In this document: piece after piece, positions 7,737 to 60,338 of the stretch
Numbering within the stretch: the stretch's first letter is position 1
Layout of the letters: the number at the start of each line of letters is the position of its first letter
Origin: Aminobacter ciceronei
Lineage (GTDB): Bacteria; Pseudomonadota; Alphaproteobacteria; Rhizobiales; Rhizobiaceae
DNA: 64,000 nucleotides
Direction of reading: 5' to 3'
Assembly (NCBI RefSeq): GCF_014138625.1
Contig: NZ_JACJHY010000025.1
Coordinates: 1-64,000 of the forward strand
Notes under the pieces: model-generated
Databases searched by the model: none
What the model saw: the letters and a program-made list of their open reading frames with translations, nothing else
What the model was told of the DNA's origin: nothing
Position numbers and translations under genes: made by a program

Positions 7737-7965
7737 GCCCCGCATGGTCTTGCCTCCCCCGGTCATGCCTGCCCCAGTCATGCTCGACATGGTCGTGCTC
7801 CCTTGCCTGTGCCTGCCATTGTCATGTCTGCCCTGCCCGTGCCTGCCATGGTTTCGTCTGCCGTTGTCATGTCTGCCCCCATGCCGCCATGGCTGTCGTC
7901 GTCATGCCCGACATGTCTGCTCCCACGGTCATGTCCGCGATGATCATGCCTGCCATGGTCACGCC
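7737..7965. repeat. Degenerate tandem repeat between two oxidoreductase genes
   Basis: About 220 bases are built of imperfect copies of a 12-16 base unit around GTCATGCCTGCC. It fills the space from the start of oxidoreductase A to the stop of oxidoreductase B, and at the 3' side reaches the start codon, which is itself within an ATG-containing repeat copy. No open frame here looks like a real protein. Confidence 0.85.
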
Positions 7966-8924
7966 CGTCCCAATGCGTAGCAGCGGTCGATGATGGCCAT
8001 GGCGCGCCTGGCGTCGGCGAGCGACACCGCCGGCGGCCGGCCGGCGGCCAGGCGCTGCAGGGTGTCAGCCATGACGTCGTGATACCGGCGGGCGATCGGC
8101 GTCGCCGGCAGGTCGGTCTGTTTCTCGTCATCGAGGGTCGACAGCGCCAGCCGGTCGCCGAGGTCGCTCAGCGTGGCATTCGCAGCGGAGACACGCCATT
8201 CGAAGAGGCCGCGTTTCATCGAGGCAAAGGTGTAACCGGCTTCGATCAGCCCGAGCATGCCGTCGGCGGCGCGCAGCACGATTGCCGCGTAGTCTTCGAC
8301 CTTGGTTCCGTGAAGCGGTCGGCCGAAGGAGGCGCTCGTTATCTCGACCTCCTGCCCGGCCGCCAGCATCAGGAAGGCATTGATGCCATGGATGCCGAGA
8401 TTGCGCAGCGCGCCGCCGCCGCCGATCGCGGGATCCAGCACCCAGGCGACGCCGTCATCGACATAACGTTGCGGCGGCCCGTTGATCAGGCGGAAATGCG
8501 AATGCGAGACCGGCCCGCGCCGCCCGGCGGCATCAAGATCATGGAGCGCCGCCAGCATCGCCATGCCATGCGGCAAGGCCATGGCGGCGAAGACGCCCTT
8601 GCGCTGTGCCGCCGCGATCAGGGCGTCGGCGGCATCAGCCGAAATGCCGAGCGGTTTTTCCAAGAGCAGCGGCAGACCGGCTGCGATGACCTGGAGACCG
8701 CGTTCGACGATTTCGAACGGCCGGCCCATGACGACGGCAAGATCGGCATGTTCCAGCGCGGCCTGCAGGCTCGGTGCGACAGGGCAGCCGAATTTATCGG
8801 CGAAACCGGCCGCCGCCTCGGGCGCGGGGTCCCAGGCCGAGGCAATGCCGGCGCCTGCGGCGCGCGCGGCTTCGCCATGCATGGTCGCATGCCAATGGCC
8901 GACACCCAGGAAGGACAATTTCAT
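7959..8924 (-). CDS. Gfo/Idh/MocA oxidoreductase (B)
   Basis: This is a 321-residue NAD(P)-dependent oxidoreductase-type protein. The ATG at 8924 (MKLSFLGVGHWHA) places the start directly before the Rossmann strand; the earlier ATG at 8942 adds six residues. The glycine motif is slightly unusual (GVGHWH instead of GxGxxG), while the LLEKPLGISADAAD signature and GIHGINAFLMLA region are intact. It is divergent enough from oxidoreductase A to have a different substrate or an opposite step. Its position behind the transporter ATPases supports a role in the same sugar pathway. Confidence 0.85.
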   Translation of the reverse strand: MKLSFLGVGHWHATMHGEAARAAGAGIASAWDPAPEAAAGFADKFGCPVAPSLQAALEHADLAVVMGRPFEIVERGLQVIAAGLPLLLEKPLGISADAADALIAAAQRKGVFAAMALPHGMAMLAALHDLDAAGRRGPVSHSHFRLINGPPQRYVDDGVAWVLDPAIGGGGALRNLGIHGINAFLMLAAGQEVEITSASFGRPLHGTKVEDYAAIVLRAADGMLGLIEAGYTFASMKRGLFEWRVSAANATLSDLGDRLALSTLDDEKQTDLPATPIARRYHDVMADTLQRLAAGRPPAVSLADARRAMAIIDRCYALGRA

Positions 8925-9042
8925 CGGGGACCTCACACTCAATACGACCGCCTGAACGGCGCTGCCCGGGATACCGGCCCAGGACGGCGGCTCAAGGCAG
9001 CGGCTGGACAGCGGATGGAAACGGGTTCAGACGTCTGTCTAA

Positions 9043-9152
9043 CCTTTTGTTTTTGCGCACTTCCTTGGCAAAGCCGCTGCAGTTTTCCTGGAATTGCGCT
9101 TTCGTCTTTGCGCAACTCCCAGGAAAAAGCGCTGCGCAGTTTTCCTGCGCTA
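9043..9152. repeat. Rhizobial palindromic intergenic element, copy 1
   Basis: On the minus strand the element begins with the TAG stop of the ATPase gene and continues with GCAGGAAAACTGCGCAGCG, a further AATTCCAGGAAAACTGCAG arm and GCGCAAAAACAAAAGG. The same order of blocks is seen at 20733-20811 and 50404-50509. It can fold into hairpins and might serve as a transcript end. Confidence 0.75.
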
Positions 9153-10097
9153 GAGATCATCGCGGATGCAGGCCTTGAAATGGCCCGGCCTGACCTCGCG
9201 CAGCTGCGGTGCTGCTGTTGCACAGGCGTCGAGCGCGCTGGGGCAGCGGGTGCGGAAGACGCAGCCACTGGGCGGATTGGCCGGGCTCGGAATGTCGCCC
9301 TTGAGAATCTCACGCCCTCTCTTCGCCTCCGGGTCCGGCGACGGGATCGCCGACATCAGCGCCCTGGTGTAGGGGTGCTCGGGCCTGGCATAAAGATCCT
9401 CGCTTGCGGCGATCTCCATGATGCGGCCGAGATAGAGCACGATGACGCGGTCGCAGATATATTCGACCACGGCGAGGTCGTGCGAGATGAACAGCATTGT
9501 CAGGCCGAGCCGCTGCTGCAGGTCGCGCAGCAGGTTGATCACCTGCGCCTGGATCGACACGTCGAGCGCCGAGACCGGTTCGTCGGCGACGATGAATTCA
9601 GGCGCCAGCGTCAGCGCCCGGGCAATGCCGATGCGCTGGCGCTGGCCGCCAGAGAATTCGTGGGCGTAGCGGTGGATGGCGTCTGCCGGCAGCTCGACCT
9701 GTTCGAGCGCCGTCTTCGCCCGCTCCAGCCGCTCCGCCCTGCTGCCGATGCCCTGGATTTTCAGGCCCTCGGTCAGGATCTCGCCGATGGTCATGCGCGG
9801 CGACAAGGAGGCGTAGGGGTCCTGGAAGATGTATTGCATGCGCGGCCGCCGGCGCCGCATCTCGGCGCTGGACAGTTTGGTGATGTCGGTGCCGTCGAAG
9901 CGCACCTCGCCCGCCGTCGGCTCGATCAGCCGGAGCACCGAGCGGCCGATGGTGGTCTTGCCGCTGCCGGATTCGCCGACCAGCCCGACAACCTTGCCCC
10001 TGAAGACGTCGAAGGAGATGTCTTCGAGGATCTTCAGGGTCGTGCTGCGCGTCTGGTAATGCTTGGCGAGGCCACGGACCGAAAGAAGCGGGGTCAT
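9150..10097 (-). CDS. ABC transporter ATPase, DppF/OppF type
   Basis: The protein has 315 residues from the ATG at 10097, which overlaps the stop of the partner ATPase by four bases. Walker A is GESGSGKTT, the signature is [15 protein letters not shown], and Walker B is [13 protein letters not shown]. The C-terminal oligopeptide-transporter extension with its cysteines is present ([20 protein letters not shown]). It is one of the two cytoplasmic motor subunits of the Dpp/Opp-type importer encoded just upstream. The context of sialic acid genes suggests the cargo is N-acetylneuraminate or a derivative, as for the SatABCD system of Haemophilus ducreyi, rather than peptides. Confidence 0.9.
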
Positions 10098-59399: not shown

Positions 59400-59461
59400 T
59401 CCATGACCACCGGCCGGTCGTCTCGCGCAGAGGGCAGGCCCATGACCTCGAGAGGGCAGAG

Positions 59462-60031
59462 ATGAGCAAGGCATTGTTGGCACTCCCGCTGGCGCTGATG
59501 TCGCTGTCGGCGGCCCCTGCGACGGAGAAGGACTTTCTTCAAACGCTTTCCGGCAGTTGGCAGGGCTCCGGCCAGGTCCGGCTGCGGCCTGATACGGCGC
59601 CGGTCCCGGTCGTCTGCACGCTGCGATCACGCAGCAAGGGCGCTTCGCTCAATCTGGACGGCAATTGCCGGGCAAAAATCGTCTTCTCCAGGCGCATCGG
59701 CGTCGATCTGCGCGCCGAAGGGGCGCGTTATTCCGGCACCTATGTCGGTTCACGTCGCGGTGCGGCCAGCCTTGCGGGCAGACGCAGCGGCGATACTGTC
59801 ACGCTGCAGATCAACTGGCCTGACCGCGGCTCAGGCGCGCGGGTCGCCACCATGCAGGTGGCGAGCAGGATTGCCGGCAAAATGCGCATCGTCACTGTCG
59901 AACGACACCCGCAGACCGGAAACCGGGTGGTGACGGCTGACATCGCCTTCAGCCGCAACCAGACGGGCCTCTTTTACAGACGCACATTTTTTGAGCCGGG
60001 CGGCATCCTTCGCTGCGTGGGGGAACCCTAG
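59462..60031 (+). CDS. Exported hypothetical protein
   Basis: The 189-residue protein has an N-terminal signal (ALLALPLALMSLSAAPA) and a beta-rich mature domain: FLQTLSGSWQGSGQVRLRPD, PVPVVCTLRSRSKGASLNLD, YSGTYVGSRRGAASLAGRRS, TVTLQINWPDRG, with two cysteines (VVCTL, DGNCRA) likely to form a disulphide. It looks like a lipocalin-type periplasmic protein; ligand unknown. Confidence 0.75.
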   Translation: MSKALLALPLALMSLSAAPATEKDFLQTLSGSWQGSGQVRLRPDTAPVPVVCTLRSRSKGASLNLDGNCRAKIVFSRRIGVDLRAEGARYSGTYVGSRRGAASLAGRRSGDTVTLQINWPDRGSGARVATMQVASRIAGKMRIVTVERHPQTGNRVVTADIAFSRNQTGLFYRRTFFEPGGILRCVGEP

Positions 60032-60047
60032 CTGAGCACGGCGGGTT
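60022..60047 (+). promoter_or_regulatory. EcfG-type promoter candidate
   Basis: GGAAC (60022-60026), 17-base spacer, GGTT (60044-60047), within the last codons of the exported gene and 24 bases before the ATG at 60072. Confidence 0.55.
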
Positions 60048-60071
60048 GTTGACAGGAAACGGAGACCCACC

Positions 60072-60338
60072 ATGGCCAAGACAGCAACGCGGCAAAGCCC
60101 AGCCGGACCCAGGCCGGCACTGCCCCCGGACAATCCGACGCCCAGGGTGAAACCGACGCCCCAGGACAAACCGACGCGCAACGACAAACCGACGCCCAGG
60201 AACGAACCGACGCGCAACGACAAACCGACACGAGACACGCGGGACGACCCGTCAGCCAATCCGGACGCCGACGAAAACCAGCCCGACACCGCGCCCCACA
60301 AGGACGTCGAAAAGCTTCAGCGCAAGCTGAAGCGCTGA
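60072..60338 (+). CDS. Disordered repeat protein
   Basis: The 88-residue protein is almost entirely disordered: after ATRQSPAGPRPALPPDNPTP it repeats a (K/E)PTPxx or KPTRND hexa/heptapeptide seven times (VKPTPQDKPTRNDKPTPRN, cited in part), then an acidic stretch and a basic C-terminal helix VEKLQRKLKR. Highly charged hydrophilin-like proteins of this sort are thought to protect against desiccation or osmotic stress. The repeat is also visible as a DNA tandem repeat. Confidence 0.65.
   Translation: MAKTATRQSPAGPRPALPPDNPTPRVKPTPQDKPTRNDKPTPRNEPTRNDKPTRDTRDDPSANPDADENQPDTAPHKDVEKLQRKLKR

Follow-up and report, generated by a model that had tools for sequence, protein, structure and literature searches.

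A chromosomal domain of Aminobacter with an excess of short tandem duplications of unrelated sequence

The window analysed here is a stretch of 64,000 bp, bases 1-64000 of contig C25 from the draft genome of Aminobacter ciceronei (G000; 6.77 Mb, 96 contigs). It carries short tandem arrays, and the signal is regional, not one of gene edges: short tandem duplications are far commoner in this stretch than in the rest of the sampled genome. The arrays have unrelated units of a narrow size range, their copy number changes between species, and they are not enriched at gene edges beyond what their intergenic position entails. We see an even chance that they are young minisatellites (variable number tandem repeats, VNTRs) which are born by short tandem duplication, with the local input raised in one plastic domain.

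Arrays were called with Tandem Repeats Finder (TRF), with a score of at least 60 for the test on gene edges and at least 55 for the G000 arrays in the copy comparison; each species is represented by one genome. Density counts were limited to intergenic regions of at most 1000 bp. On contig C25, 13 arrays are found in 22,162 bp of intergenic DNA, compared to 4 in 75,475 bp from 38 other stretches of the same genome, an 11-fold difference (p=3.9e-6). Forty G000 stretches had been fetched, of which two (L154 and L162) were excluded as controls because they map into the domain. The excess is also seen on the part of C25 outside the window (5 arrays in 8,175 bp, p=8e-4). The array-rich domain covers positions 1-64000, extends through the rest of C25, and corresponds to part of the region at about 3.94-4.27 Mb of the related genome G002. 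Bases 1-18 kb of the window have no long match in the G002 stretch that was searched.

The region from 3.94 to 4.265 Mb of G002 carries 33 arrays in 49,437 bp, compared to none in 47,093 bp of distant samples (p=2.6e-10) and 7 in 48,330 bp of the flanks (p=2.8e-5). Around the segment that is syntenic with the window, 17 arrays are found in 17,067 bp, and the densest bins (4.04-4.115 Mb) also lie there. Without a limit on intergenic length, the values are 400 and 411 per Mb for C25 versus 64 for the rest of G000, and 542 for the syntenic part of G002 versus 35 for its rest, where both "rests" include stretches inside the domain. In genome G004, two contigs that map to the domain carry 13 intergenic arrays, which are clustered, in about 36 kb of intergenic DNA. 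Fifteen 20-kb stretches from eight other genera contain no array at a score of 60 and six at a score of 50. Mesorhizobium loci have 4 arrays in 72.8 kb of intergenic DNA, and those of the Rhizobium/Agrobacterium group have 3 in 111.6 kb.

Perfect duplications were also scanned for (periods of 10-45 bp, with low-complexity units left out). There are 48 in 0.517 Mb of the domain versus 23 in 1.65 Mb from elsewhere in Aminobacter, and 4 in 1.556 Mb from other taxa (15 control stretches and 59 of 80 loci). An order-3 Markov control based on the domain sequence yields 1.6 per 600 kb, a value obtained without the low-complexity filter. The size range is narrow: 36 of the 37 intergenic perfect duplications measure 11-20 bp, and 15 bp is the commonest length (10 cases). 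The match extends beyond the two copies by 0, 1, 2, and 3 bases in 13, 10, 6, and 3 cases, respectively (32 of 48 in total). Chance alone would produce extensions of these lengths in about 53, 29, 11, and 4% of cases, by our own estimate, so that a flanking repeat does not seem to be required for most founding events. A period that is a multiple of three is found for 27 of 28 coding arrays versus 26 of 60 intergenic arrays.

Copy numbers change between relatives, so that the local copying process proposed in the initial annotation of the window is borne out. Among 24 anchored comparisons of G002 arrays with G000, 16 differ in length, 8 by whole units and 8 otherwise (the latter class includes a few large unrelated insertions), and 8 are equal. 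In the opposite direction, 28 G000 arrays from C25 and two further stretches were compared with G002: 10 could not be anchored, 6 were the same, 7 differed by whole units, and 5 otherwise. Several arrays, e.g. those at 55903 in the window and at 80648 on C25, are approximately single-copy at the same site in a relative, with flanks of at least 90% identity, and must therefore have arisen within the genus.

The initial annotation had also stated that the unit differs at each place and that there is no single dispersed element. This holds: a similarity of at least 0.7 is reached by 0 of 136 unit pairs on C25 and by 1 of 1485 in the G002 domain, and shuffled units yield 0 and 1. REP, RIME, and ERIC are names of dispersed repeat families, and a single family of this type is ruled out because the unit similarity equals that of shuffled units. 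A search of the window against Rfam at the gathering score gave no match. A clustered regularly interspaced short palindromic repeat (CRISPR) array is ruled out as well, since the copies are contiguous and not separated by unique spacers. In both TRF and the perfect-copy scan, the copies stand head to tail with a unit of about 10-100 bp, as in VNTRs or minisatellites. Most window arrays with a score of at least 60 have imperfect copies according to TRF.

Ten places had been cited in the initial annotation, and an array lies at most about 15 bp from each of them; TRF reports ten window arrays at a score of at least 60. That most of them touch or include a start or stop codon was overstated. About four do so or nearly so: the array at 55534 extends over a stop and that at 30768 over a predicted start, array 7746 begins 1 bp from a predicted start, and array 54009 begins 6 bp past a stop. 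The other six do not; arrays 13938, 42669, 52755, and 55903 are 35-79 bp upstream of predicted starts, and arrays 29871 and 60122 lie inside genes. The in-frame ATGs noted at 29871 and 30768 do exist. The actual starts, though, are likely outside the arrays, at 30034 and 30824, respectively, the former because of an ATGA overlap with the preceding gene and the latter because of an upstream GAGG. That a natural stop is one of the copies was confirmed at 55534: in the window and in G002, the last codons and the TGA of gene 55593-55868(-) are the first copy of the array. This gene end (Asp-Arg-Ala-stop) is kept in G004 (with TAA) and G006, with no further copies in the approximately 110 bases compared. 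At 54009, the stop is in a diverged copy outside the array as delimited by TRF. The end of the adjacent YflT-domain gene is similar in G003, G004, G001, and G008, which have no array, and differs in G005; the G003 form resembles the array unit. The segment with the stop codon looks like the founder copy at both 55534 and 54009.

These stop-containing founder copies would fit the earlier proposal that copying is directed at start and stop codons. We assembled a set of 88 arrays (score at least 60) from C25, G002 3.835-4.27 Mb, and two G004 stretches. Compared to random placement anywhere, a gene edge lies inside 15 of them versus 7.9 expected (p=0.011), within 10 bp of 24 versus 10.6, and within 50 bp of 47 versus 19.9. 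This excess over the whole region arises because the arrays are mostly intergenic. When the 60 intergenic arrays are placed in the same intergenic regions, 15 overlap a gene edge or are at most 3 bp from it versus 14.3 expected (p=0.46), 24 are at most 20 bp from an edge versus 21.5 (p=0.25), and the nearest edge is a start in 24 versus 23.5. The separate sets behave alike, with 12 of 38 versus 9.8 in G002 (p=0.22) and 3 of 13 versus 3.8 on C25. The claim that copying acts at gene boundaries is thus not upheld, and we give targeting of start and stop codons hardly any credence. It is also very improbable, if slightly less so, that selection maintains the arrays at gene ends as regulatory or phase-variable elements which affect start choice, read-through, or mRNA folding. 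Four window arrays do precede predicted starts by 35-79 bp, and in one case the gene is that of the catalase. Yet there is no edge enrichment given the intergenic location, the units have no structural bias (mean z 0.09, n=72), and several arrays are absent or altered at the same site in relatives.

Under the reading that we prefer, the birth of young minisatellites in a domain of raised input, a stretch of about 12-20 bp would be duplicated in tandem, mostly without flanking repeats, and each array would originate independently in place. It would afterwards gain or lose units and decay through point mutation. Selection would retain those duplications that are intergenic, that straddle a start or stop and leave it intact, or that preserve the frame of a gene. 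In some members of the genus, several-fold more duplications would fall in a single plastic domain of about 0.3 Mb than in the remaining chromosome. We infer that founding does not depend on microhomology and that the excess reflects extra mutational input and not weaker selection. In a more specific version, which we put forward only tentatively, the effect is local to the domain and specific to the mutation type: microhomology-independent duplication of 12-20 bp is raised several-fold and base substitution is not.

Several observations weigh against this reading. Several of the 48 perfect duplications were counted twice, being shared by two species among G000, G002, and G004. In 16 of the 48, the match continues for more than 3 bases, mostly because a third copy follows. 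If L154 and L162 are kept as controls, the comparison becomes 13 arrays in 22,162 bp versus 8 in 80,154 bp, and the ratio drops from 11 to about 6. The limits of the domain in G002 were set after the profile of a contiguous 775 kb had been seen, and its edges are soft because the flanks exceed the distant samples (p=0.0085). Partly syntenic stretches of G003 (77 kb) and G005 (80 kb) carry only 1 and 0 intergenic arrays. Gene calls are from a home-made finder trained on G000. No cause of the domain was found. The remaining points concern constraint. Coding density is 0.69 in the window versus 0.84 elsewhere in G000. A nonsynonymous proxy amounts to 0.31 in the core and 0.25 in the rest of the domain versus 0.23 in cold stretches and 0.24 in the flanks. 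The ratio of intergenic to fourfold-site divergence is 0.59 and 0.62 in the domain versus 0.52 and 0.56 outside. The proxy is thus slightly raised, and the ratio is somewhat higher because divergence at fourfold sites is lower in the domain, so that constraint there may be mildly weaker.

The latter points, namely the slightly higher proxy and ratio, also speak for the main rival, relaxed selection, in which duplications arise at a uniform rate and survive in a gene-poor, plastic, accessory domain. The two densest 25-kb bins of G002 have a coding fraction of 0.39 and 0.49, the domain has a patchwork structure (C25 aligned with 58% of G002 4.034-4.153 Mb), and the intergenic arrays in Mesorhizobium and the Rhizobium/Agrobacterium group show that a low background exists in other genera. 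However, accessory stretches elsewhere in the genus are poor in duplications: in 257 kb from G003 C3, G005 C1, G004 C27, G001, G008, and G006 there is no perfect duplication of at least 12 bp, although TRF does report a few degenerate arrays in them. Absolute intergenic divergence between G000 and G002 is not raised in the domain (7.7% for its core and 9.2% for its remainder, versus 9.9% for cold stretches and 10.5% for the flanks). Divergence at fourfold sites is 13.1, 14.9, 19.0, and 18.9%, respectively. These values apply to alignable DNA only (high-scoring segment pairs of at least 700 bp at 84% identity or more, from 13 of 41 G000 sequences), which again limits their weight for the reading that we prefer. 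Collinear intergenic regions are at least as dense in arrays (7 in 6,239 bp) as rearranged ones (12 in 16,920 bp), both being above cold regions. The excess also persists at a matched intergenic length of 201-400 bp (6 in 6,983 bp and 16 in 18,418 bp, versus 4 in 30,574 bp and 0 in 13,575 bp). Divergence, collinearity, and the cold accessory stretches point to extra input of duplications rather than to relaxed selection alone, although they do not prove it, and we regard relaxed selection as less likely than not. More doubtful still is import, by which the domain would have arrived piecewise from a high-duplication lineage with the arrays as passengers. The patchwork synteny with G002 and G004 is in line with it, as is a 99% identical block beside less similar ones, a sign of recent exchange. 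Against import, several arrays are approximately single-copy in a relative at the same site and hence were born within the genus, and no array-rich donor was found in our small sample of other genera.

A number of candidate causes for the domain were examined. A terminus effect was rejected, as the terminus of G002 is near 3.3 Mb, judged from the skew switch and a dif-like site, and the domain (3.94-4.27 Mb) is some 0.65-0.95 Mb away from this likely terminus. The dif-like site, which has two mismatches to what we take to be the dif pattern, is a weak match. Both the Ku and the LigD family were detected in all but one of the ten genomes of the genus, the exception being 81% complete. End joining by Ku/LigD was rejected as a local cause because the presence of these families is not correlated with array density: in G002, the hottest genome, the only copy is at 3.26 Mb and hence not in the domain, and G003 has three Ku matches and is cold where sampled. 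Ku/LigD may still be a general duplication mechanism, which would not explain the domain. Hairpin-forming units were rejected by the structure scores given above, which were computed on TRF consensus units with coding ones included, and arrays are not enriched at rearrangement breakpoints. As for strand skew, the intergenic units tend towards C in all four sets (p=0.12, 0.42, 0.0075 [n=5], and 0.099), with significance only in the set of n=5. A plasmid origin was rejected because the 20 listed of 304 plasmid records all match on the catalase stretch and cover at most 17% of the query. Two Aminobacter plasmid stretches around a catalase gene (about 42 kb) carry 2 arrays each at a score of at least 50. 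Among 60 proteins scanned with Pfam, which represent a minority of the genes of the domain, none was named as a reverse transcriptase, Cas1, or another enzyme that could act locally.

The kind of repeat is ordinary, namely the birth of VNTRs or minisatellites, and its concentration in one domain is unusual. Like bacterial VNTRs, the arrays have head-to-tail units of more than 9 bp, change their copy number in unit steps, and keep the frame when coding. They differ in that many unrelated arrays of a narrow size are found within one domain of about 0.3 Mb. We know of no such regional case among bacterial VNTRs. None of the titles and abstract openings listed in searches of open-access papers describes such a domain, most subscription papers being outside the scope of these searches, and an Aminobacter genome paper (PMC8460812) has the term 'tandem repeat' once, within its reference list.

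The closest described case that we found are the tandem repeats of archaeal Borgs. According to their report (PMC9879509), each array has its own unit, an independent origin, and fast evolution; arrays in open reading frames (ORFs) have units of a multiple of three, and others are found between genes or partly in gene ends, with first units included. The unrelated unit at each place and the frame-keeping in ORFs are shared with the Aminobacter arrays. Borg repeats are described there as perfect, A-enriched, and extrachromosomal, and as virtually absent from the host genome. The Aminobacter arrays, in contrast, are often degenerate, are chromosomal in G002, and are not A-rich (A fraction of 0.147 in intergenic units versus 0.207 in intergenic DNA of the G002 domain). 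Unrelated, scattered, and partly non-coding arrays are also described for single prokaryote species, e.g. M. ruminantium, but the available part of that survey of prokaryote satellites (PMC6749651) is chiefly about long-repeat satellites and mentions no regional domain.

The birth of minisatellites is unsettled because founding duplications are seldom caught. In the Aminobacter domain, young two-copy events within a narrow size range are numerous and concentrated, some of the same sites are single-copy in relatives, and a cold control exists in the same cell; the founding step is therefore directly testable. If the more specific version of the preferred reading is true, a single mutation class can be raised within a stretch of about 0.3 Mb on a bacterial chromosome. 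The arrays are also a warning that no mechanism directed at gene boundaries is needed for in-frame ATGs or stop-bearing copies to appear at the ends of genes.

The genes of the window code for sugar oxidoreductases, an ABC transporter, an ArsC-family protein, a catalase, a YflT-domain protein, a cold-shock protein, and an IS110-type transposase, with a few weak phage-like matches (all by Pfam). A degenerate 15-bp array (CTGCCATGGTCATGT-like) at 7746-7961 fills the intergenic region between two Gfo/Idh/MocA genes; it is covered by three TRF rows, which overlap or adjoin. At 13938-13997, a 19-bp unit is present in 3.2 copies between the genes for an ABC permease and a solute-binding protein; this array lies 46 bp upstream of where the permease is predicted to start. 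An 18-bp duplication (1.9 copies) at 42669-42703 precedes a small AAA-domain gene, at a distance of 35 bp from its predicted start. These three arrays have no anchor in G002.

Two 15-bp coding arrays are on the minus strand. The one at 29871-30007 (overlapping TRF rows) is near the N-terminus encoded by a gene without a Pfam match and lies inside this gene according to the gene calls. The full array is 30 bp longer in G002, and the TRF core (29871-29926) is one 15-bp unit longer. The array at 30768-30808 encodes 2.7 copies of MTSRP, in frame, close to the N-terminus of a protein whose HTH_7 match is weak and under the curated cut-off; it is one unit shorter in G002 and two units shorter in G004. 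An 18-bp coding repeat on the plus strand (60122-60229) is part of the gene for an 88-aa protein rich in Lys-Pro-Thr and is 6 bp shorter in G002.

The other four arrays are found between 52755 and 55948. At 52755-52805, a 20-bp unit (2.5 copies) is 79 bp upstream of the katE-like catalase gene; the array has equal length in G002, is 18 bp shorter in G003, and is replaced by other sequence in G005. The 14/15-bp array at 54009-54062 (3.7 copies), past the YflT-domain gene, differs from G002 by 1 bp in length and in its internal copy pattern, within a 99% identical block. The 18/19-bp array at 55534-55605 has 3.8 copies in the window and 5.1 in G002. A 17-bp unit (2.8 copies) at 55903-55948, 35 bp upstream of the predicted start of gene 55593-55868(-), has about two units fewer in G002 and G004.

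The 99% identical block comprises the catalase and YflT genes (52300-54766), with adjoining blocks at about 86-94%; this difference in identity suggests a recent recombination between species. A small translocation concerns the segment 57897-60508, whose counterpart in G002 (4082639-4085278) is found across the catalase gene. Plasmids of A. aminovorans and Aminobacter sp. SS-2016 carry a Ku-LigD-Ku cluster next to the catalase gene (L250:22050-26331 and L251:22028-26309), and ligD in these clusters has a 15-bp coding repeat. In Mesorhizobium sp. STM 4661, a 17-bp array (L073:13030-13090) is found about 1 kb from a catalase gene and is among the few perfect ones outside Aminobacter. The region 23400-29300 of the window has a low GC content (0.545) and contains ORFs for Mrr-like and HNH endonuclease-like proteins that were missed by the gene finder; it is possibly a defence-type island. 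At 22465-23373, a protein with ankyrin repeats and a cytochrome c domain is predicted. A transposase of the IS110/IS116/IS902 type is encoded at 33364-34290, within the array-rich domain.

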